NCBI GenBank assembly: GCA_029262855.1
Contig: JAJCYP010000026.1
Span: 1 to 59,880 of the forward strand
Direction: 5' to 3'
From: Bacteroidota bacterium
GTDB taxonomy: Bacteria > Bacteroidota > Rhodothermia > Rhodothermales > UBA10348
Length of the DNA: 59,880 bases
Shown: positions 23,800 to 34,444 of the stretch, piece by piece
How the letters are laid out: every line of letters starts with the position of its first letter
How positions within the stretch are numbered: position 1 is the first letter of the stretch
Notes under the pieces: generated by a model
What the model was told of the DNA's origin: nothing
What the model saw: only the letters and a program-made list of their open reading frames with translations
Database searches by the model: none
Translations under genes and position numbers: made by a program

Positions 23800-24231
23800 T
23801 CAGTCCAGAATCAACCGACCGTCTTCGGTAATCCGGGCATGAGAGCCGGACGAAATGGTCTCGAATCCTTCCCGGCTCACCGCGAGAATCGGAAAGCTTG
23901 CCTCATACATCTCGCCTGCCACGACCGATGCGAGGGCGAGAAAGACGTCGGCCCTGTCCGTGACCAGACCGGCCGGGGCAACGCCGGCCCTCACAGATTC
24001 CAGGAGGATGGCCGTCGAGGTGCTGGAGCCCCTCGTGTAGGGAAGCACGAGAATACGCCCGGCTGAGATTTCGCCCGAAAGCGGATGGCGCCGATCGATG
24101 ATCTCGCCGGTCTTCTGGTCGTAGCCTCCCCAGAAACTCAGGGGCTCACTGCTGGCCAGGGTGCGGCCTTCGGCCAACCCGGCCACGATCAACTCTCCCG
24201 GTATGACACGGCGGGCGGTCAAAGCACCCAC
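23800..24231 (-). CDS. Aconitase X small (swivelling) subunit, DUF126
   Basis: The 143-residue product starts at GTG 24231, inside the last codons of the large-subunit gene (13-nt overlap), a tight translational coupling. The swivelling domain is recognisable from the substrate-binding serine loop G-R-I-L-V-L-P-Y-T-R-G-S-S-T-S-T and the P-L-S-G-E-I-S-A-G strand before it. Together with the upstream-encoded large subunit it forms an AcnX dehydratase. Bacterial AcnX enzymes characterised so far dehydrate cis-3-hydroxy-L-proline, and archaeal ones dehydrate 5-phosphomevalonate; which applies here cannot be told. Confidence 0.87.
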   Translation of the reverse strand: MGALTARRVIPGELIVAGLAEGRTLASSEPLSFWGGYDQKTGEIIDRRHPLSGEISAGRILVLPYTRGSSTSTAILLESVRAGVAPAGLVTDRADVFLALASVVAGEMYEASFPILAVSREGFETISSGSHARITEDGRLILD

Positions 24232-25484
24232 AATCCTTCGTCCCGCCCAACGCGTCCGGAAACCGCGGACTCGACACAGTCAGAGAGCCGACCGTAGGTG
24301 ACGTCGACTCCCAAGAGACCCGGCGAGTAGTAGGCATACTTGGCTGAGTTGGTCATCAGGTGCTTGATGCGGTCCGGGAGCATGGGCGAGGTGAGCGGAC
24401 AGGTGTCCACGGTAATCCGCCCGCCAAACTGGCGAAGCGGCTCAAGCAAACCTACGTGTTCGGCAATCATCCGAACGGCCCGGCTGCAGGTCACCAGAAA
24501 GTCCACGTCGGGGTGCTTCTTTCGCCCGGTAACCAGGGGCGCCAAGGCCTTGAATTCATTGATCGAGAAGTGCGGACTGCCCAGAACCACCAAATCCAGT
24601 TCCTGGCCATCGGCTGTGGAAAGCTCGGCGTAGGCCTCGCGCAGATCCTCCATGACGAGCGGAACCGCGGGCGGAACGGCCCCGCCTCCGAAGGCATCCG
24701 ACACCGTCGCGGCCTCGGGAGTGACCCCCACCAGATGAAACAGGGCGATGGCTCCGGCAGACGCCCCACCGGCGCAGACCGCCTTCAACTGATCCTCGTT
24801 GGGTGAGACTTCCATGCCTTCGACCACAGGGATACCATCCGAGGCCTTTCGTCCCAGGAAATGGCCGAGCACCGGATAGAATGAGTCGTCCTCCTGCAGG
24901 GCCTTCGGGATACCGGTCATCCGAAAGAGCTTGGTGCCTTTTCGTCCCTCGTCGAGGTGGAGGCCGGCCGCCGGCACTCTCCCGGTTATGGCGGCGCATA
25001 TGTCCAGGAGATCCGGGTACCGTTCGGTCCGCGCGCCGATGACGGAGTTGTAGAAGCCAATGACGTTCGATTCCCCGGCCGCAATCTGCTGCCCAAAATG
25101 GGGGCGGTGCTCCGTCTGGTAGGGAGCGCAGGTCCACGTCTGGATGCAACCCATCGACTCGTAGGCCTTCATCTGACGAATGGCGTTCGCGGCGACGTCT
25201 CCGGGCACATCCCAATCCTGCCAGCCGTGTTCGTCCACACCCGCGACGTTCAAGGTGGAAGGAACCGCCACCTTTGCGCCCAGAGAGGCCAGGCGTTCGG
25301 CGTACTCCATGGTCGCTACGCCCATGTACACGGTCGAGTCGATGTGGGCCGCCTCGATGTCCATGAACCGATTCACGCCAAAGACGGGGAGCATCCGGTT
25401 CAGGATGGACATCGCCATCTTCGCGGCGGGTCCCTCCTCTCCGTTGAGAAGTGCTAGATCCTTGGGCGTCAGCTTGGGCGTCAT
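24219..25484 (-). CDS. Aconitase X large (catalytic) subunit, DUF521
   Basis: ATG 25484 begins a 421-residue protein (M-T-P-K-L-T-P-K-D-L-A-L-L-N-G-E-E-G-P), the typical AcnX N-terminus; a TTG two codons upstream is also in frame. Characteristic blocks are A-H-I-D-S-T-V-Y-M, V-P-S-T-L-N-V-A-G-V-D, C-I-Q-T-W-T-C-A-P-Y-Q, G-A-R-T-E-R-Y-P-D and the late V-D-T-C-P-L-T-S-P-M, whose cysteines belong to the Fe-S-binding region of the family. It overlaps the small subunit by 13 nt. No proline-racemase or hydroxyproline gene lies next to it, so the substrate stays open. Confidence 0.88.
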   Translation of the reverse strand: MTPKLTPKDLALLNGEEGPAAKMAMSILNRMLPVFGVNRFMDIEAAHIDSTVYMGVATMEYAERLASLGAKVAVPSTLNVAGVDEHGWQDWDVPGDVAANAIRQMKAYESMGCIQTWTCAPYQTEHRPHFGQQIAAGESNVIGFYNSVIGARTERYPDLLDICAAITGRVPAAGLHLDEGRKGTKLFRMTGIPKALQEDDSFYPVLGHFLGRKASDGIPVVEGMEVSPNEDQLKAVCAGGASAGAIALFHLVGVTPEAATVSDAFGGGAVPPAVPLVMEDLREAYAELSTADGQELDLVVLGSPHFSINEFKALAPLVTGRKKHPDVDFLVTCSRAVRMIAEHVGLLEPLRQFGGRITVDTCPLTSPMLPDRIKHLMTNSAKYAYYSPGLLGVDVTYGRLSDCVESAVSGRVGRDEGLWVL

Positions 25485-25513
25485 CGCCAAAGGTTACGGC
25501 ACGTCCGGTCGTG

Positions 25514-26590
25514 TTATGAGCTCGAAATCAATGCTCTCAATGCGCGGCTTCTATCGCCCGAGGACGAGATCCCCTCGACGGCATCCATGTACGCGGACTC
25601 CGCCCTTTCGCCCTCGACATACTTGCTGGCCGAGATGAGAACGCGCGTGCGATCTCCACTGGAAGAGATTGTTTTTGCCACGTCCAGTATGTCCACCAGC
25701 GAGTCCGTGTTGATATCGTCTAACTGCAGGACACGCAGCAGGACGCGGGCCTTGTCTCCGCTGGAGGGAATGCTGGCCGCCGCCTCCAGGAGGCCAGCAA
25801 GTTCGTCATCGGACGGATTGGTTTCCAGCGCGCGCAGTATCACTCTGGCCTTGTCACCCGAGGACGGGATGGTGGAGACGATACCGGCGATGCCGCCCAT
25901 GGCAATGCCGTCATCCAATCCCCGCATCAGAACGCGTGATCGATCGCCTGAGGATGGAACACTCGCTGCAGCCCTGAGCCAAGCCGCTTCGGTCTCCGCA
26001 TCGCCCTTGAATGAAGGAGCGCTGGCCATCAGTACTCGCGACCGATCGCCGCTTGAGGCCACCTCTTCCATGGTGAGCTTGGCGACTTCCATGAGCTCGC
26101 TGCGAGTCAGCTTGGCCTGCTCCACCAGTTGTATCAAATAGCGGGCGCTCCCGCTGCTGCGCTCGATTAGTCGAACCTCCGCGAGCACTCGTTCCGGACC
26201 GCCGTCGGCCAGGAGGATTCCGACCCGCCGCTCGGCATCGATTCCGCCCTCTCGTACAATTGAAAGCAGGAGGTCTCCTATTTCTTCGCGAGCGGAGGCG
26301 AAGGGCACGCGGTCACCGTTGCGCCGATAGTCGTACTTGATTTCCTGGCCATCCCGTTCGATGTCGAGTCGCCAATCGCGCCGCCCCTCTTCGCGTCTGA
26401 TCTTAATGTGGGCATCTCTTGACATCGAAACGACCGATCGGTAGTCCCGGGCGAACTCGATTTCACCATCGATATCGACGTTAATCTTTTCGTCATCGGA
26501 TTGGGAGGTCCACTTGTAGCGATCGCCGTCTTGAGCCAATCCGGGCTGAACCAGGAGGGTCGCAGCGAATAGCAGTAGGAAGTACTTCAT
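25514..26590 (-). CDS. Secreted SSGD-repeat protein, companion of the M56 sensor
   Basis: The 358-residue product has a signal peptide (MKYFLLLFAATLLVQPGLAQ). Residues about 25-140 are a charged beta-type region with no family I can name. Residues about 145-358 consist of a repeated helical unit with a conserved S-S-G-D-R/K-x-R-V-L core at 179, 213, 243, 277, 310 and 343 (periods 34, 30, 34, 33, 33), and a degenerate S-S-G-S-A-R copy at 145, exactly 34 before the first. This suggests an alpha-solenoid. The same repeat ends the M56 protein encoded 21 bases upstream. It is the last gene of a three-gene minus-strand operon with BlaI-like and M56 genes. A role as sensor partner, ligand-binding or anti-peptidase protein is inference. 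Confidence 0.75.
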   Translation of the reverse strand: MKYFLLLFAATLLVQPGLAQDGDRYKWTSQSDDEKINVDIDGEIEFARDYRSVVSMSRDAHIKIRREEGRRDWRLDIERDGQEIKYDYRRNGDRVPFASAREEIGDLLLSIVREGGIDAERRVGILLADGGPERVLAEVRLIERSSGSARYLIQLVEQAKLTRSELMEVAKLTMEEVASSGDRSRVLMASAPSFKGDAETEAAWLRAAASVPSSGDRSRVLMRGLDDGIAMGGIAGIVSTIPSSGDKARVILRALETNPSDDELAGLLEAAASIPSSGDKARVLLRVLQLDDINTDSLVDILDVAKTISSSGDRTRVLISASKYVEGERAESAYMDAVEGISSSGDRSRALRALISSS

Positions 26591-26611
26591 GATGTCGGGC
26601 CGAGGGGCCAG

Positions 26612-28480
26612 TTAGTTTGTCAGCGTGCGCAGCACGCGCTCGCGGTCGCTGGCTGATGGAATGCGGTCTACGGCATCCAGAAGTGCCGATCTGATTTGAG
26701 CCGTATGCTCGACGCCCTGGCTAATAGCGAGCAGCATTCTGGAGCGGTCACCGGAGCTGGGAATGGTCATGGCCGTCCGGATCAGATCCAGGGCTGCCTC
26801 GCCTCCCGGCGACTGTGCACTGAGGTAGGCCATCAGGACCCGCTTCTTGTCACCGGATGACGGAATAGATCGGGCGGCGTCCAGGAAGCCTCCATGGACA
26901 CGCTGGTCTGATGGGATCTTGCCAGCCGCGTCGATTAGTAGCCTTGCGCGGTCTCCCGTTGAGGGAATGCTCTTGGCAAGCTTCAGGAATCGGAGCCACC
27001 CCGAAACCGTGAGGGTTGGGCTCGCTGGTCCAGCACGGAGTTCGAGAGACGGTATGGATGCCGGGTCAGATTCTGGAGCAGGGACGCTCGCGAGAGGCGC
27101 CGGACCCGCCGGGACATCCGCGACCCTCGGGACGTCTGCGACGGCCGGTGCGTCAGGCCGCGGGGGACGGTCTGCGAACCCGGGCGATGGCGCGAGCGGC
27201 GCCAACGGTGGCAGACTCGGCAGCGGTGGCGGCGACGGTAGCGGTGGCAGCGACGGTAGGGGCGGCAGCGGCGGTAGGGGCGGCAGCGGCGGCAAACCCG
27301 GACTATTCGGGACACTGGCCAACTGAACGTGGTCCTGCTGCGAGCCCGTCCAGTCAATTTCGAGGGACGGTGCGCTAAGGACAGATAGCACCGTCACCAG
27401 GGCTACAAGCCCAATCGCGACCGCAGCGCGGCCTCGGAATTCCTTTGACGTGGCATTCGCGCCCTGCTCCAGCAGGGACTTCACGCGCGTAACAATGTCG
27501 CTTTCCTTCGCCGCCAGTCCGGGTGCCGCCACCATGCTGGCGCCGACCAGTCGCAATTCGATCATTCTCCCGAGAGACCGTGCGTAAGAAACCGGCTCGC
27601 GAGTAGCGCTGACCACCCACTCATCGCAGGCGGCCTCCCGCTCGGACTCCATCCACGCGCCCACGGCTCGGACCGCCGGGTTAAACCAGAGCACCGCTTC
27701 GGCGATCCGCTGAATCAACAAGGCCCAGTCATCGCCTCGCTGAAGGTGCGCGACCTCGTGGAGGGCCACCTGATCGAAGGTCTCCTCCTCTCCCGCAGCC
27801 AACAAGGCCTCCGGCATGAGGACCGCCGGCCTACGGAATCCGGCTGCGACCGGGGAGCTAATCGGAGCCACGGCCATCTCCAGGTCGCGCCTCAGCGGAG
27901 ACACCCGTTCCAAGATTCTCGCACGTGTCTGACTCGACACGCCCGTCGAGCGACTCTTGAGTATCTGAACCCGGGAGGCGGCCACGGCCAGGCGCCAGAA
28001 GCCAAACGCCACGCCGACGAGCCAGACCACGCCCAAGAGAACCGCGAATGGTCCGGCCAAGGGGGGCAACTGCAATGATCTCAGGCCGGCCGTGGTGCCG
28101 GATCCGAGGGCGGCGCCGGCAGGCGTAAACCGGTCGGCCAAGATCGGGGTGGTTGCGCTCAGCGAGGCCGGCTCACTCCTTTCGAGCGCCCGGGGTGACC
28201 TGCCATCAGGGACATCGTCGACTGCGGCCACCATGGCTGGAGCAGTCTGGGCGCCGGATTGCCCAGGCTGAGCTGGGCTCAGCGCCGAGGCCAGCAAGGC
28301 GCCATGAAGGAGGACAATGCCTATCAAGCAGGCGCCCCACAGCGTATGACGAGTGGTCGCATTCAGACGGAGGCCTCGACTCAGCATGCGGATGCACAAG
28401 GCCGTCATACCGAGAATCAGGGCGGAGCCCCACAGGCCGTGACCTACAACGGTCAAGAAGGCGGTTGCAGCAGTTTCCAT
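26612..28480 (-). CDS. M56 (BlaR1/MecR1-like) membrane metallopeptidase with SSGD repeats
   Basis: The ATG at 28480 shares one base with the BlaI-like stop (TGATG). The 622-residue protein has hydrophobic segments at about 8-30, 46-66 and 144-163, a zinc-protease motif H241-E-V-A-H245 with E-S-E-R-E-A-A-C-D-E-W downstream (third ligand region), and a last membrane segment at about 350-370. This is the BlaR1/MecR1 sensor-protease plan. In place of a penicillin-binding sensor domain it has a periplasmic Pro/Leu-rich hinge (about 394-433) and, from about residue 506, four repeats of exactly 34 residues with P-S-S/T-G-D-R/K. M56 activation would cleave or trigger loss of the BlaI-like repressor. 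The signal sensed is unknown. Confidence 0.85.
   Translation of the reverse strand: METAATAFLTVVGHGLWGSALILGMTALCIRMLSRGLRLNATTRHTLWGACLIGIVLLHGALLASALSPAQPGQSGAQTAPAMVAAVDDVPDGRSPRALERSEPASLSATTPILADRFTPAGAALGSGTTAGLRSLQLPPLAGPFAVLLGVVWLVGVAFGFWRLAVAASRVQILKSRSTGVSSQTRARILERVSPLRRDLEMAVAPISSPVAAGFRRPAVLMPEALLAAGEEETFDQVALHEVAHLQRGDDWALLIQRIAEAVLWFNPAVRAVGAWMESEREAACDEWVVSATREPVSYARSLGRMIELRLVGASMVAAPGLAAKESDIVTRVKSLLEQGANATSKEFRGRAAVAIGLVALVTVLSVLSAPSLEIDWTGSQQDHVQLASVPNSPGLPPLPPLPPLPPLPSLPPLPSPPPLPSLPPLAPLAPSPGFADRPPRPDAPAVADVPRVADVPAGPAPLASVPAPESDPASIPSLELRAGPASPTLTVSGWLRFLKLAKSIPSTGDRARLLIDAAGKIPSDQRVHGGFLDAARSIPSSGDKKRVLMAYLSAQSPGGEAALDLIRTAMTIPSSGDRSRMLLAISQGVEHTAQIRSALLDAVDRIPSASDRERVLRTLTN
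27218..27302. repeat. Tandem CCGCTGCC(G)-type minisatellite inside the M56 gene
   Basis: On the minus strand this stretch is built from imperfect 9- and 15-base units such as CTACCGCCGCTGCCG, encoding P-P-L-P-P-L-P. It forms the Pro-rich hinge of the M56 protein. Such a repeat is prone to slippage in multiples of three, which would lengthen or shorten the hinge without breaking the frame. Confidence 0.6.
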
Positions 28481-28878
28481 CACGAGGGATCCTCCTTGTT
28501 TGCGCCGCTCTCCTCAAGCAGCGTCCTGATCTTCTCTGCGTTCTCCAGATTCAGTTCATCCGACTCGATCACATTCATCAGAAGCAGCTCGGGCGAGTTG
28601 TCGAAGAACCGGTCCAGGATATATCGCAGCGCGCTCTGCCGAGCCTGCCCGGCGCCGACGGACGCCGAGTAGACAAAGGCCCGGCCCACTTTACGATGGG
28701 TCAGATAGCCCTTGTCCTCCAGAATGCGAAGTACCGTCTGAACCGTGGAGTAGGCCACCTTGTCATCGCCGGCCAATGCATCGGTGACCTCAGCCACCGT
28801 TGAGGGACCCCGATCCCAAAGAACTCTCATGAGCTTGAGTTCTGCGTCGGTCAACGTGGGTGATTTGGATCGCGCCAT
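28480..28878 (-). CDS. BlaI/MecI/CopY family transcriptional repressor
   Basis: The 132-residue protein begins at ATG 28878. The winged helix is clear: L-T-D-A-E-L-K-L-M-R-V-L-W-D-R-G-P at the N-terminus, then V-A-Y-S-T-V-Q-T-V-L-R-I-L-E-D-K-G-Y-L as recognition helix and following strand, then H-R-K-V-G-R-A-F-V-Y as the wing. The C-terminal dimerisation helices contain the D-R-F-F-D-N-S-P segment typical of BlaI. It is the first gene of an operon with the M56 sensor peptidase. Two TAA-N4-TTA dyads upstream (28889-28900 and 28935-28946) are candidate operators for autoregulation and for control of the divergent S9 peptidase. Confidence 0.9.
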   Translation of the reverse strand: MARSKSPTLTDAELKLMRVLWDRGPSTVAEVTDALAGDDKVAYSTVQTVLRILEDKGYLTHRKVGRAFVYSASVGAGQARQSALRYILDRFFDNSPELLLMNVIESDELNLENAEKIRTLLEESGANKEDPS

Positions 28879-28888
28879 GGGCCAAGTA

Positions 28889-28900
28889 TTAATTCGTTAG
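28889..28900. promoter_or_regulatory. Putative BlaI-type operator 1
   Basis: The sequence TTAATTCGTTAG has the dyad TAA-N4-TTA and lies 11 bases upstream of the BlaI-like start. A near copy occurs 46 bases further on. Position and symmetry fit a repressor site; no binding is shown. Confidence 0.45.
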
Positions 28901-28934
28901 CTGAACAATACGGAGGTCGCGCCCAAAGTTGCAA

Positions 28935-28946
28935 CTAATTTGTTAA
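28935..28946. promoter_or_regulatory. Putative BlaI-type operator 2
   Basis: The sequence CTAATTTGTTAA repeats the TAA-N4-TTA dyad of site 1, sharing TAATT-x-GTTA. It lies 57 bases upstream of the S9 peptidase start at 29003, so one repressor could act on both divergent genes. Confidence 0.45.
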
Positions 28947-29002
28947 AAGATGCCAATGGGCCGCTCCGAGGCTATACTTCGGAGCCCAAATCGCCCACTG
29001 CC

Positions 29003-31501
29003 ATGACCCGAATCCCCCCCCTGTTTCTCGTGCTGGCCTTCCTGGCCGCCCCGTCGCTGCGGGCCCAGGAACGCTCGCACCCCACCGAGAACCCGGATGC
29101 ATCGGCCTATATCCAGCCTCCGGCAGCCATCGCCGCAGCGCTTGCCACCGACAAGAACTACGCAGTACTGAACAACCCGAGTCCGGATGGCGGGCATTTT
29201 CTGGTGCCCCATCAGACCGAGTTGTCCACGCTGGATTTGATGTCCCGGGAGACGTATCGGCTCGGCGAGTTGGAACTGAGGCCCGCCACGGACCGCCTCT
29301 GGCATTTGGACACCTACGGCATCGATGGCGTCCGGCTCTTCTCATTGGAGAACCGCAGCTTCTCTACCATTGATCTGCCAGACGGCGCCTTCGCCAGCGA
29401 CTTCATGTGGTCAGCGGATGGCTCGCAGCTGGCCTTCCTGGCCCACCTGCCCGATCACACTGAGGTCTGGTCCGCCAACACGGCCACCGGCAGGCCTCGG
29501 AGTTGGTCGAATCGGCGCGTCCTGGCCACCATTGCGACGAGTGCACGAGGTCAGGGCGCGCGCGCCTCGAACATGCTCCAGTGGACACCCTCCGGCAGTC
29601 TGGTCACCCTGGTGGTGCCATCTACACGAGGGGCTGAACCCCATGACAATCCCGTCCCCAGTGGCCCGGTGGTTCGCCGGACCCGCGACGAGGGCGTTTC
29701 CACCCGCACCTATCCCAACCTCCTGGAAGACCCGCACGACGAAGACCTCTTCGAGCACTATGCCACCAGCCAGATTGTGGAGGTGGGCCCTCGTGAAAGG
29801 GTGAGGAGCATCGGCTCGCCCGCGATGTGGGAATCCATTTCGCTCAGCCCGGATGGCCGGCACATTCTGGCTACCCGGATAGAGCGCCCCTTCAGCTATC
29901 GAACCAGTTACCGGGGCTTTCCACGACGCACGGTCATACTGGATGCCGAGACGGGTGCCGAAGTTGAACTGGATTATTCGCCACTGCGTGAAGGTGGCGG
30001 CAGTGGCGGTGGGAACGGACCCCGAGACTTCAGCTGGATTCCCGATGGATCCGGGCTGGTGTTCCTCGAGCGGGCGGAACGGGATGAAGACGACCCCGAT
30101 GCCGACCGACCGGACCGCGTCCTGCGTGCGGCCGCACCCTTTGATCTGACCGCTACCACCGAGATTGCCGCAAGCGATGACCCCATCCGGTCGGCTCTCT
30201 TCTCCGAGGACGGCAGCAAGCTCTTCGCAACCGTCACCAGGGACGGCAAGACCGGCATCGCCTACTGGGACCTGCAAGCCGCCGGCGGAGAGGCCCGCAT
30301 GATTCAGGAATTCCATTCGACGGATGACCCCTTGGAATTGCCCGGCACGCTGCTATCCGGCCACGACTACAATGGCATTGATCACGTGGTCGTCGCCACG
30401 GACAGAGCCTCGGTCTACGTCGAGGGGGACGGCTACAAGGCGGACTTCAAACCCCAGCCCTTCATCGACCGGGTTGCCCTGGCGGACGGGGTTACGACCC
30501 GCGTGTTCGAGGGAGCCAGTGACTCGTTTGACCGGCCGCTCGTCGCCCTGGATGCAGACCTGGGGCAGCTCATCGTTCAGCGGGAATCGAAGACCGACTT
30601 CCCCGATTCCTACCTGGTTCAAGGCGACAACTGGACCCGGCTCACCAGCAACCGGGACCCATTCCCTGAGGTCACCGCGGTTGAACGGATGGATTTCGAA
30701 TTCGAGCGGCGTGACGGGTTGAAAGTGCAGGGACGCGTTTCTCTTCCGGTGGGCTACCAGGCGGGCGAAAAGGTGCCCGCCATTTTCTGGACCTATCCAC
30801 GCGAATACACCACCACCGAGCGCTACGAACGGGCCGCCATCCGCAGCCGAAACCAGAACGCGTTCACCCACATGAGTTGGCTCCGGTGGAGCGACCTGTG
30901 GCTGACCCAGGGGTACGCGCTGGTGTACCCGGACATCCCCATCATCGGCGAGAACTACAACGATACCTACATCGGCAACCTCGTGGATGCGATGTACGGG
31001 GCGATTCGCGCCGTGGATGGACTGGACGTCATCGACATCGACCGGATCGGCCACGGGGGGCACAGCTATGGCGCCTTCGCCACCGCGAACATCCTCGCGA
31101 ATGCGCCCTTCTTCAAGGCTGGCATTGCAGGCGATGGGGCCTACAACCGGTCCCTGACGCCGTCGGGTTTCCAGGCTGAGAGACGGACCGTCTGGGAGGC
31201 GCCGCATACGTACATCGAGATGTCGCCGTTCTTCAAGGCAGATCAGATCGACACGCCGATGCTGATGTACCACGGGGGCGATGACAACAACACCGGCACA
31301 TTCCCCGTGCAGTCGCGGCGGATGATCCACGCGTTGACCGAGCACGGAAAGACGGCTGTCCTGTACGAGTACCCGTACGAGTCGCACACGCCTCGGGCCA
31401 TCGAGAACAAACTCGACATGTGGGGCCGGTTCATTGGCTGGTTTGACACCTATGTCAAGGGTACCGCGCCGGAGGGCGAAACCGTTTCTGACGACTCGTG
31501 A
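29003..31501 (+). CDS. Secreted S9 family (prolyl oligopeptidase type) serine peptidase
   Basis: ATG 29003 opens a signal peptide (M-T-R-I-P-P-L-F-L-V-L-A-F-L-A-A-P-S-L-R), giving 832 residues. Residues about 40-560 form the beta-propeller part (repeated S-P-D-G and S-x-D-G-S strings). The C-terminal alpha/beta-hydrolase domain has the triad: Ser688 in G-G-H-S-Y-G-A-F, Asp760 or 761 in H-G-G-D-D-N, and His795 in Y-E-S-H-T-P-R. The family cleaves short peptides in the periplasm; the glutamyl-endopeptidase-like subgroup is a fair guess. It is divergent from the BlaI-M56 operon and shares its 124-base control region. Confidence 0.88.
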   Translation: MTRIPPLFLVLAFLAAPSLRAQERSHPTENPDASAYIQPPAAIAAALATDKNYAVLNNPSPDGGHFLVPHQTELSTLDLMSRETYRLGELELRPATDRLWHLDTYGIDGVRLFSLENRSFSTIDLPDGAFASDFMWSADGSQLAFLAHLPDHTEVWSANTATGRPRSWSNRRVLATIATSARGQGARASNMLQWTPSGSLVTLVVPSTRGAEPHDNPVPSGPVVRRTRDEGVSTRTYPNLLEDPHDEDLFEHYATSQIVEVGPRERVRSIGSPAMWESISLSPDGRHILATRIERPFSYRTSYRGFPRRTVILDAETGAEVELDYSPLREGGGSGGGNGPRDFSWIPDGSGLVFLERAERDEDDPDADRPDRVLRAAAPFDLTATTEIAASDDPIRSALFSEDGSKLFATVTRDGKTGIAYWDLQAAGGEARMIQEFHSTDDPLELPGTLLSGHDYNGIDHVVVATDRASVYVEGDGYKADFKPQPFIDRVALADGVTTRVFEGASDSFDRPLVALDADLGQLIVQRESKTDFPDSYLVQGDNWTRLTSNRDPFPEVTAVERMDFEFERRDGLKVQGRVSLPVGYQAGEKVPAIFWTYPREYTTTERYERAAIRSRNQNAFTHMSWLRWSDLWLTQGYALVYPDIPIIGENYNDTYIGNLVDAMYGAIRAVDGLDVIDIDRIGHGGHSYGAFATANILANAPFFKAGIAGDGAYNRSLTPSGFQAERRTVWEAPHTYIEMSPFFKADQIDTPMLMYHGGDDNNTGTFPVQSRRMIHALTEHGKTAVLYEYPYESHTPRAIENKLDMWGRFIGWFDTYVKGTAPEGETVSDDS

Positions 31502-31534: not shown

Positions 31535-34444
31535 ATGATCGGCACCATTGTCGCACACTACCAGATTGAAGAGAAGCTTGGCGGCGGCGGGATGGGCGTC
31601 GTGTATCGAGCCCGCGACACGAAGCTGGACCGCGATGTCGCCCTCAAGTTCTTGCCGCCCTCGATGTCGCACGACGCGGAGGCCAAGGCGCGGTTTGTTC
31701 AGGAGGCTAAGGCGGCGTCTGGACTTGATCATCCCAATGTCTGCACGATCTATGAGATCGGCGAGGCGGATGATGGTCGACTCTACATCGCGATGGGCTT
31801 CTATGATGGCAAGACGCTGAAGTATGCCCTGGAGGCCGGACCCCGGAGCGTGGAGGAGGTAGCCTCGATCGGGCTCCAGATTGCCGAAGGCCTCGGCGCG
31901 GCCCACGCCGCCGGGATCGTGCATCGGGACATCAAACCTGCCAACGTCATGCTGCAGCATGATGGACGAGTCAAGATTCTGGATTTCGGTGTGGCCAAAC
32001 TGGGGTCAGGCGTAGACCTCACCAAGGCTGGATCGACCGTAGGGACTACAGCCTATATGAGTCCCGAACAGGCCCGCGGTGAAGAGGTGGACGGCCGGAC
32101 CGATATCTGGTCCACTGGCGTGATTCTCTACCAGCTCCTCACCGGAAAGAGGCCCTTTGACGGTGACTATGAGCAGGCCGTGGTCTACGGCATCCTGAAC
32201 CAGGAGCCGGAATCTCCGGGCGGAGAGCTGGCCGATTTGGTGCTCAAGATGTTGGCCAAGGATCCAGATGATCGTTACGCGGACGCCGCAGAGGTTGCCA
32301 CCGTACTGGGACCCTTCGCTCCACATACGAGGCCAGTTCATGCGGCGGCGGGTGCGGCCACGCAGACACCGGCTAAGCCTGCCACTCCCCGATGGGCCAT
32401 CCCGGTCGTTGCCATCCTGCTCGCAGGCATGCTCTGGTTCGTGTTTGAACGCGGCGGTGAAGGACCCGCGAGCGGTGGCGTCGAGCCGAATCGCATTCTG
32501 ATCATGCCGTTCCTCATCCAGGGCCCCGCGGACATGGAGCCGCTGTCTGACGGGATGGTCACGCTCCTGAGCACGATGCTGGATGGTGCGGGCTTCATTA
32601 CCACGGTAGACCAGGCAAGCGTCATCGAGTCCATCCAGCGGCGTGGAGATGTAGTCCTCGGCCCAAGCCTCGGAGTGGACATGGCGCGCGAGTTCAACGC
32701 CGGCCGTTTCGTGGTGGGCAGCATCGTGAGGGCGGGCTCCGAGAGTCGAATGAATGCCGGGCTGTATAGACTTGATGGCACGCGCGAGGCTGAGGCCGAT
32801 GCCGTCTACGCTGGAGACGACGACTTCATCCGAGCGGTTGACGAACTTGCGGCAGAACTCGTCGGGGGTCGATTGGCAGATCCAGCGGAGGAGCTGAGTT
32901 CCCTCGCGGTGGGTACCACGGCTTCGTTTGAGGCGCTCAAGCACTACCTCGAATCGGACCGGCTGCTCCGAGCCGGCGAGTTTGCTCACGCCCGGGATGA
33001 GATAGACCGTGCCCTCGCCATCGACAGCACGTTTGCGGTAGCGTGGTATCTCAAGGCCGAAATCATGGGTTGGCTGGGGAACCCTCGCGCGGTCCTCGCC
33101 CCCGCTCGAAAGGCCGCTCAGTATTCGGGTGGCCTCTCCGGTCGGACCGCTCTGCTCATTGAGGCTGACCTGGCGTTCAATGAGGGGCGCCGGGCGGACT
33201 CCGAGCGCATGTTGCGCGCGATCCTTCGGGATTACCCTGAGAGCAAGGAGGCCACGGGCTCATTGGCAGAAATCCTGGAGCACTACGACAGTCGCGTGTC
33301 GGCCAAGCGCGAGGCATTGAGCCTTTTCGCGCGCGTCACCGAACTATCGCCGGGCAACCAGCAGTACGCCATGCATCACGGCGATCTGCTCGCCCTCACC
33401 GGCCTCCTCGACGGCGACTATCACGGACTCGATTCCCTCGCCGCGCTGTATGCCGGAATGCCTATCCCAGAGCGGGGCGATTCTCTCGACTGGTCGACCG
33501 CGCTCGACCTCATGAGTCCGGACGCGCGTCGATACATGATCCAGCATGCCAGGTTGAGGGGATCAGCCGAGGACAGCCTGGCTTCCTTCGACATAGATCC
33601 CGCTCTCGGATTCGCGGGTGGGCGATTTGTCGGGAGTCTGCATTTTGAGCATGCCCTGGCCAGTCACCAGAGGATCAGGCAAGAATCCTCCGACCTCGCC
33701 GCTCCAAGTGCAAGCGGTCTGGCCTGGTGGGCGAATCTCAGTTCTGGCCGTTGGGCTGAGGCGAAGGCAATTCAGGGCTCCGGCTCCATCGAATTCACCA
33801 TCCTCTCGGTGACGCTCCCCACGCACGAAGTACCCCGCGACTCCCTCCAAATTCTGCGTCGCAGACTCGATGCGAGGAGCCCGAGTGACATCGACTCAAC
33901 CTCCGGGGTGTTCTTCAAGCAGTACCTCGGGACCCTGCTCGCGTGGCGAATGGATGACGCCGAGTTGCTCCAGCAAGATGAGGCAGCCTTCCGCTTGCTT
34001 CTGCCCGACACATCTTCCAGTCCGATTGTGGCCTCGATGGCGCTCGAACTCCAGGGGCTACTGGCCTGGCAATCGGGTGATCTCATCCGGGCCGAGGCCA
34101 TTATGGAGTCGGCACTTCAGGACAATGTTTACTTCCTCGACTTTGTGAGCTTTGCGGGTAGACCGCAACCCGGATGGTTCTTGGCCGAGATCCGCGAGGA
34201 CCTCGGTGACCTTGAGGGGGCGATCGACTACTTCAACACAATCGCAGGTCCTTTTGTGGTGCCGGGATGGGAGCGAACCGCGGCGTTGTACGAGCGCCTG
34301 GGCAACACGGACGAGGCCATCCGCTACTACGGCCTGGTCACGAAGATCTGGGCGAATGCCGACGCTGAGCTGCAGCCCAGAGTCGAGGCTGCACGGTCCA
34401 GAATGGAGGCCCTCGTGACAGCCAAAACCCGAGAGGGCCGTTAG
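31535..34444 (+). CDS. Transmembrane Ser/Thr protein kinase with TolB-like and TPR periplasmic half
   Basis: The 969-residue protein starts at ATG 31535 after AAGGAG. Residues 1-260 are a complete Hanks-type kinase: glycine loop G-G-G-G-M-G, Lys38 in V-A-L-K, catalytic Asp132 in H-R-D-I-K-P-A-N, D150-F-G, and S-P-E-Q in place of APE. A single membrane helix lies at about 287-304. The outer half begins with a TolB/CyaC-like alpha/beta domain (I-L-I-M-P-F, then a repeat ending V-V-G-S-I) and continues as TPR-like helices to the end. The layout suggests a sensor that signals inward by phosphorylation; targets are unknown. The cyanophycinase gene starts 6 bases downstream. Confidence 0.88.
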   Translation: MIGTIVAHYQIEEKLGGGGMGVVYRARDTKLDRDVALKFLPPSMSHDAEAKARFVQEAKAASGLDHPNVCTIYEIGEADDGRLYIAMGFYDGKTLKYALEAGPRSVEEVASIGLQIAEGLGAAHAAGIVHRDIKPANVMLQHDGRVKILDFGVAKLGSGVDLTKAGSTVGTTAYMSPEQARGEEVDGRTDIWSTGVILYQLLTGKRPFDGDYEQAVVYGILNQEPESPGGELADLVLKMLAKDPDDRYADAAEVATVLGPFAPHTRPVHAAAGAATQTPAKPATPRWAIPVVAILLAGMLWFVFERGGEGPASGGVEPNRILIMPFLIQGPADMEPLSDGMVTLLSTMLDGAGFITTVDQASVIESIQRRGDVVLGPSLGVDMAREFNAGRFVVGSIVRAGSESRMNAGLYRLDGTREAEADAVYAGDDDFIRAVDELAAELVGGRLADPAEELSSLAVGTTASFEALKHYLESDRLLRAGEFAHARDEIDRALAIDSTFAVAWYLKAEIMGWLGNPRAVLAPARKAAQYSGGLSGRTALLIEADLAFNEGRRADSERMLRAILRDYPESKEATGSLAEILEHYDSRVSAKREALSLFARVTELSPGNQQYAMHHGDLLALTGLLDGDYHGLDSLAALYAGMPIPERGDSLDWSTALDLMSPDARRYMIQHARLRGSAEDSLASFDIDPALGFAGGRFVGSLHFEHALASHQRIRQESSDLAAPSASGLAWWANLSSGRWAEAKAIQGSGSIEFTILSVTLPTHEVPRDSLQILRRRLDARSPSDIDSTSGVFFKQYLGTLLAWRMDDAELLQQDEAAFRLLLPDTSSSPIVASMALELQGLLAWQSGDLIRAEAIMESALQDNVYFLDFVSFAGRPQPGWFLAEIREDLGDLEGAIDYFNTIAGPFVVPGWERTAALYERLGNTDEAIRYYGLVTKIWANADAELQPRVEAARSRMEALVTAKTREGR

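Follow-up and report, generated by a model that had tools for sequence, protein, structure and literature searches.

How does a BlaR1-type membrane protease without a beta-lactam sensor receive its signal, and what is the role of an exported protein, encoded next to it, that is built from the same repeat as the protease's own tail? A three-gene operon of a Bacteroidota bacterium of the order Rhodothermales raises this question. It lies on contig JAJCYP010000026.1 (assembly GCA_029262855.1), of which we analysed positions 1 to 59,880 (hereafter the window, 59,880 nucleotides). On the minus strand, the open reading frames (ORFs) follow the order blaI-like repressor gene, M56 protease gene and gene of the exported repeat protein, which we call the partner. 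A first-pass annotation had described this operon of BlaI, M56 protease and a secreted protein; all three ORFs lie where it had placed them, and Pfam assigns families to the repressor and the protease. We propose, with a probability of about 0.5, that the operon encodes a BlaR1-like switch whose sensory part is divided between the protease, with its repeat tail, and a second, exported protein.

The M56 gene (26612-28483, minus strand) starts with GTG and encodes a BlaR1-type membrane metalloprotease of 623 amino acids (aa; Pfam Peptidase_M56, 6e-24). Motif reading gave HExxH as HEVAH (residues 242-246; 27746-27760, minus strand) and ExxxD as EAACD (residues 283-287; 27623-27637, minus strand), and both gluzincin motifs are intact in the M56 proteins of all five complete three-gene sets (trios) that we found. 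A profile of three trio M56 proteins matched the BlaR1 structure 8exp over the catalytic part (E=9e-12). BlaR1 spans the membrane four times, its protease facing the cytoplasm and its C-terminal domain the exterior. By hydropathy, three segments rise above the threshold in the window protein and four in that of G001, with HExxH preceding the last segment. A tether of 125 aa, 30% of them proline, leads from the last hydrophobic segment to the repeats (26996-27370, minus strand). The protein ends in four repeats (residues 502-623; 26615-26980, minus strand) anchored at residues 506, 540, 574 and 608, which is the spacing of 34/34/34 that the first-pass annotation had reported. The same annotation had stated that a penicillin-binding sensor domain (class D beta-lactamase-like) is absent, and the Pfam scan of the M56 protein likewise found none, the repeat tail standing in its place; against NCBIfam NF000326 (blaR1_generic), the protein scored 48 bits, below the cut-off of 400.

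The partner (358 aa; 25514-26590, minus strand) has no Pfam family above cut-off. Read by eye, it begins with a signal-peptide-like N-terminus (residues 1-19, ending GLA before QDGD; 26534-26590, minus strand), followed by a head domain that the first-pass annotation did not mention (about residues 24-118; 26237-26521, minus strand) and that is conserved in relatives. The remainder (residues 119-358; 25517-26236, minus strand) consists of one degenerate SSGD repeat at residue 143 and six clear copies at residues 177, 211, 241, 274, 308 and 341 (spacing 34, 30, 33, 34 and 33), in agreement with the seven copies counted earlier, one of them degenerate, at 30-34-residue spacing. The motif SSGD[RK] occurs six times in the partner; in 20,000 shuffles, its mean count was 0.004 and the highest was 1. 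In a single comparison, the M56 tail and the partner align with 44% identity over 122 residues (E=1e-23), and so the two proteins carry the same repeat, as had been claimed. The best fit of the tail is to the partner's last four repeats, including the C-terminal end, in five of five genomes with one tie, in a register test that slightly favours the last block through end gaps. The net charge of the partner solenoid is negative in five of five genomes and that of the M56 tail positive in four of five, which offers weak support for pairing. Pfam gave nothing above cut-off for the SSGD repeats or the head, either in the partner or in three relatives.

That both arrays form solenoids had been suggested before, and AlphaFold models built from the window sequences as sole input returned alpha-solenoids for both. 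The mean predicted local distance difference test score (pLDDT) was 89 for the M56 tail; in the partner, residues 151-358 were mostly above 90 and a helix begins at each of the six clear SSGD motifs. The head was modelled as beta-rich at low confidence, with ten-residue pLDDT means below 60. Foldseek found no match at E<=0.001 for the modelled arrays. VIA-align listed HEAT/ARM-like matches with Z up to 13.5 (for example VPS35 and TOG domains), which by the tool's own note may reflect only a common arrangement of repeats; that no bacterial signalling protein stood among its 50 listed rows carries no evidential weight. A profile-search match of the head to VanA (E=0.0055) was dismissed as chance.

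The repressor gene (132 aa; 28480-28878, minus strand; Pfam Penicillinase_R, 1e-30) overlaps with its stop the GTG start of the M56 gene by 4 bases. Staphylococcus aureus BlaI is cut at Asn101-Phe102, according to an excerpt of PMC9834060. In alignments, Asn is kept at this position in all five trio BlaIs, and the next residue is Val or Leu, not Phe; the M56 protease may likewise cut BlaI here. Two operator-like dyads of the pattern YTAA-N4-TTAR lie near the blaI start (28889-28900) and upstream (28935-28946), with a promoter-like TTGCAA-18-TATTGT between them (28905-28934, minus strand), read by eye and below the promoter-scan threshold. These are the only two such dyads in the window, where 0.13 are expected, and 2 of 100 shuffles reach two. 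The paired dyad occurs at a single place in the window's genome, G000, and likewise in G001 and G426, always the trio promoter, and its reversed control pattern occurs 0 times in the five trio genomes. The single site TTAAN4TTAG was counted six times in G000 and three times in G001, two of each at the trio promoter (reversed control, 48 and 25). A search for inverted repeats of >=8 bases at the promoter found none, the dyads (4+4 bases) lying below that limit. Taken together, the candidate dyads at the operon's own promoter suggest tight self-regulation.

The trio recurs. A profile built from nine relatives (A1) matched 9 of 114 genomes in the order, and a search of 244 genomes of the class returned these 9 again. 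Complete trios were found in five genomes from three families of the order (G000, G001, G031, G425 and G426), and a partner stands next to all five M56 genes found with an SSGD-type tail; G002, the remaining genome of the genus, had no A1 match. At four further loci (in G424, G425, G028 and G025), the head is fused to M56 proteins. Because of these fusions, we place the head on the sensor side. At the head-fused loci of G424 and G425, ACTACAGGTGTAGT lies upstream of blaI in place of the dyads; we take it to resemble the TACA/TGTA boxes of BlaI/CopY. Another head-like M56 tail (G426:C219, L172) was recognized by eye only, and G013 carries a head-only ORF.

Is this design confined to one repeat? 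M56 matches above the Pfam cut-off occur in 66 of the 114 genomes of the order, and in 20 further M56 loci that we read, the tails varied. Some consist of a KYGVD...GY-type (YG) repeat. At three of these loci, the M56 gene is followed in the same orientation by a gene for an exported-looking protein that combines YG repeats with another head. The profile A6, built from these three partners, had matches in 77 of the 244 class genomes, for the most part short repeat proteins from other contexts. Among the matches listed, five extend over the head as well as the repeats (G031, G424, G425, G029 and G025), and all five lie directly downstream of a YG-tailed M56 gene that itself follows blaI; three of these five operons had built the profile. 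In G425, the YG tail aligns with its partner over 287 residues (E=6e-35), and in G423:C101 a YG-repeat frame truncated by the contig end precedes a protein made of the head only. M56-size YG frames left unread include those of G415, G421 and G029:C240 and a second one in G418. The SSGD partner and the YG partner show no similarity (E=2.5). In a midpoint-rooted tree built on about 170 residues from each of 33 M56 domains, a split with support 0.99 separates the SSGD group from the YG group, whose own support values are 0.85 and 0.70, respectively. Because an unrelated repeat family thus shows the same arrangement on a separate M56 clade, the design looks like more than one duplication accident.

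Other YG proteins and M56 tails were seen along the way. Other families of the class have short YG-repeat proteins (about 230-290 aa) that are not close to M56 genes (L215-L219 and L222), two of them (L215 and L218) adjoining a single-domain response regulator. HEAT-repeat M56 tails were assigned by Pfam at L158 and L164 and by eye at L160, L163 and L169; four of these proteases (L158, L160, L164 and L169) are long, at about 930-1165 aa, and one belongs to the same genome as the window. Downstream of these four, the short stretches read showed no partner with like repeats. TonB-C tails were found at L162 (Pfam) and L165-L167 (by eye). In an M56 protein grouping with the SSGD clade (L168, 1629-3620, minus strand), the outer tail consists of two M23 (LytM-type) domains by Pfam, which suggests a cell-wall-reading sensor.

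The partner family extends beyond M56 proteases. Profile searches gave matches in 14 of 395 genomes of the phylum, and in 34 of 148 and 10 of 147 genomes of two families, which were chosen because they already held matches. We compared the neighbours at 52 head+repeat loci, a non-random sample: BlaI-M56 genes adjoin 5, a LytS-like kinase pair with a LytTR regulator 36 and an extracytoplasmic function (ECF) sigma factor 4, leaving 7 with none of these, so that a signalling gene set adjoins 45 of the 52. Kinase, LytTR and sigma families were confirmed by Pfam on examples, the others being assigned by profiles from those examples. The count leaves out eight head-only small ORFs (G013, G243, G285, G380, G396, G472, G617:C13 and G685) and the four M56-fused heads (G028, G424:C88, G425:C319 and G025:C335). 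Two scans of contig collections yielded 20 and 27 candidate stretches with no relative confirmed, and plasmids had no match for two homologues.

At the 36 kinase loci, the partner gene comes first, two genes for LytS-like kinases follow in a row and the gene of the LytTR regulator comes last; this conserved operon was read at L020, L021, L022, L024, L025, L102-L121, L132-L136 and L138-L143. The setting accounts for 33 of the 34 loci of one family, the 34th lying near a contig end, plus three in two other families. The second LytS-like kinase scores more weakly and may be degenerate or accessory; at L138, the first is split across two frames. At the four sigma loci, the partner follows genes for the ECF sigma factor, an anti-sigma-like protein and a small membrane protein.

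The sequence shows the gene order and its recurrence, the motifs, the repeats with their solenoid models, the heads fused to M56 proteins and the operator-like dyads; around these we infer a mechanism. BlaI would sit on the operon's own promoter via the two operators. The zinc site of the M56 protease would be intracellular, with the four-repeat tail outside on its flexible proline-rich tether; should the topology match that of BlaR1, the partner would be in one compartment with the tail, outside the cytoplasm. The partner would dock on the tail via its own like repeats, of which the last four are the tail's nearest relatives, while its head would sense a cue from the envelope or from outside. 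The protease could then be toggled as the partner docks or is released, so that BlaI is cut and the operon, including the partner, is expressed; with self-regulation, feedback is likely. Because the exported proteins ExoR and CpxP restrain their kinases, we lean by analogy towards a partner that restrains the protease; co-activation fits the measurements equally well. The design recurs in related bacteria with repeats of another, unrelated type, and so the exported protein is probably a regulatory part that was split off from the sensor.

Several observations weigh against a split sensor. BlaI or M56 neighbours are missing at 47 of the 52 head+repeat loci, and G424, of the same order, carries an orphan partner (L064). 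YG-tailed M56 genes occur without a partner at L171, L177, L220 and L221, and no BlaI or M56 gene was seen in the stretches read at four longer YG-repeat proteins (L210-L213). The pairing of each tail with the partner repeats of its own genome ranked only second to third of 120 possible pairings (2-3 of 24 on subsets). The paired dyad occurs at two places in G031, one of them the trio promoter, and was not found in G425. The expectation in the first-pass annotation that the repeat travels with M56/BlaI therefore holds in one direction, every SSGD-tailed M56 gene found having its partner (5/5), and fails in the other at the 47 loci, which in the wide sense is the outcome that the annotation had named as refuting its partner model. 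Because 40 of these 47 adjoin another regulatory system, the partner idea is widened to a modular envelope regulator rather than abandoned, and the interpretation given in that annotation is partly supported. More tentative than our reading of the operon itself is a general proposal: BlaI-M56 systems may repeatedly evolve split sensors, in which an exported co-receptor is matched by like-with-like repeats and the repeat type serves as an address label, with at least two unrelated repeat families in one order and one co-receptor family also adopted by LytTR kinase and ECF sigma systems.

An alternative that we consider unlikely, yet the strongest of those weighed, is that tail and partner never touch and both bind one ligand in the envelope, such as misfolded protein or material of the cell wall; the partner would be the output of the operon that soaks up the ligand and turns the sensor off. 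Like repeats can have a common ligand, the operator-like pair lies mainly at the operon's own promoter, which would make the partner a main product, and partner relatives work without an M56 tail in the LytTR and sigma settings. The fused heads, however, put the head on the sensor, and the recurring match of repeats in an unrelated family is left unexplained unless each family has its own ligand.

A split sensor could also coexist with a second role in metabolism. Beginning 23 bases past the partner gene, two genes encode the large and swivel subunits of aconitase-X (AcnX; 23800-25490, minus strand), an enzyme with a possible link to hydroxyproline, and in G001 an AcnX gene also follows the trio (L010, 9040-10296). 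An S9 prolyl oligopeptidase-like gene (28940-31501, plus strand) is divergent from blaI, as it is in G001; its likely start, with a signal-peptide-like sequence, is nearer 29003, and its promoter region overlaps the dyads. Downstream of it lies a gene for a Ser/Thr-type protein kinase with TPR repeats by Pfam (31535-34444, plus strand). In the promoter scan, a promoter-like site for the S9 gene follows the upstream dyad at a distance of 3 bases, which makes this gene a possible further target of the switch in the window's genus. That the switch here mainly serves the S9 and AcnX genes, which flank the trio in both G000 and G001, seems improbable to us: neither was seen in the read stretches of G031, G425 and G426 (Pfam on part of the ORFs). 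Least probable is that tail and partner have no functional link and merely share repeats through a local duplication, as their tandem position and the resemblance of the tail to the partner's C-terminal four repeats, end included, might suggest, since the pair is kept in five genomes of three families and the design is repeated with unrelated repeats.

In the open-access literature, we found nothing on repeat-matched partners of this kind for M56/BlaI systems. The M56 tails that we read are of many types besides the beta-lactam sensor, and an exported family whose neighbours are signalling genes of three classes suggests a single, widely used regulatory module, so far without a Pfam family. 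Both arrays resemble HEAT/ARM-like alpha-solenoids in their stacked helix pairs of about 34 residues; they differ in that the SSGD repeats have no Pfam HEAT or ARM match and their fold matches are to the generic alpha-solenoid only. ExoR carries Sel1 repeats; in the partner, unlike ExoR, no Pfam match to the Sel1 family was found up to E=1.

The arrangement recalls ExoR-ExoS-ChvI and CpxP-CpxAR, where an exported protein sets the state of a membrane sensor. According to an excerpt of PMC7593790, ExoR and CpxP are exported partners that restrain the sensor, CpxP is produced by its own regulon, and ExoR is superhelical, as the title of a modelling paper cited there has it. In contrast to the operon described here, their sensor is a histidine kinase and not a protease, and that excerpt does not describe this sensor as having matching repeats. 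MecR2 is likewise a third gene product that modulates a BlaI/MecI-type repressor system, presented as an anti-repressor acting on repressor proteolysis; its listing does not show it to be a protein with repeats that match the sensor (PMC3406092). YjbI, from what is given in part of PMC12864828, is a distant analogy only. The closest likeness in parts is to BlaR1/MecR1-BlaI/MecI, with a BlaI-family repressor, M56 gluzincin motifs, overlapping genes, operator-like dyads at the own promoter and Asn at the cut position. The difference lies in the sensor: in place of a penicillin-binding domain, the M56 protein of the window has a tail of repeats, and its exported partner is encoded separately. By mirroring that tail, the partner would offer a direct handle on envelope sensing by a one-step protease switch.

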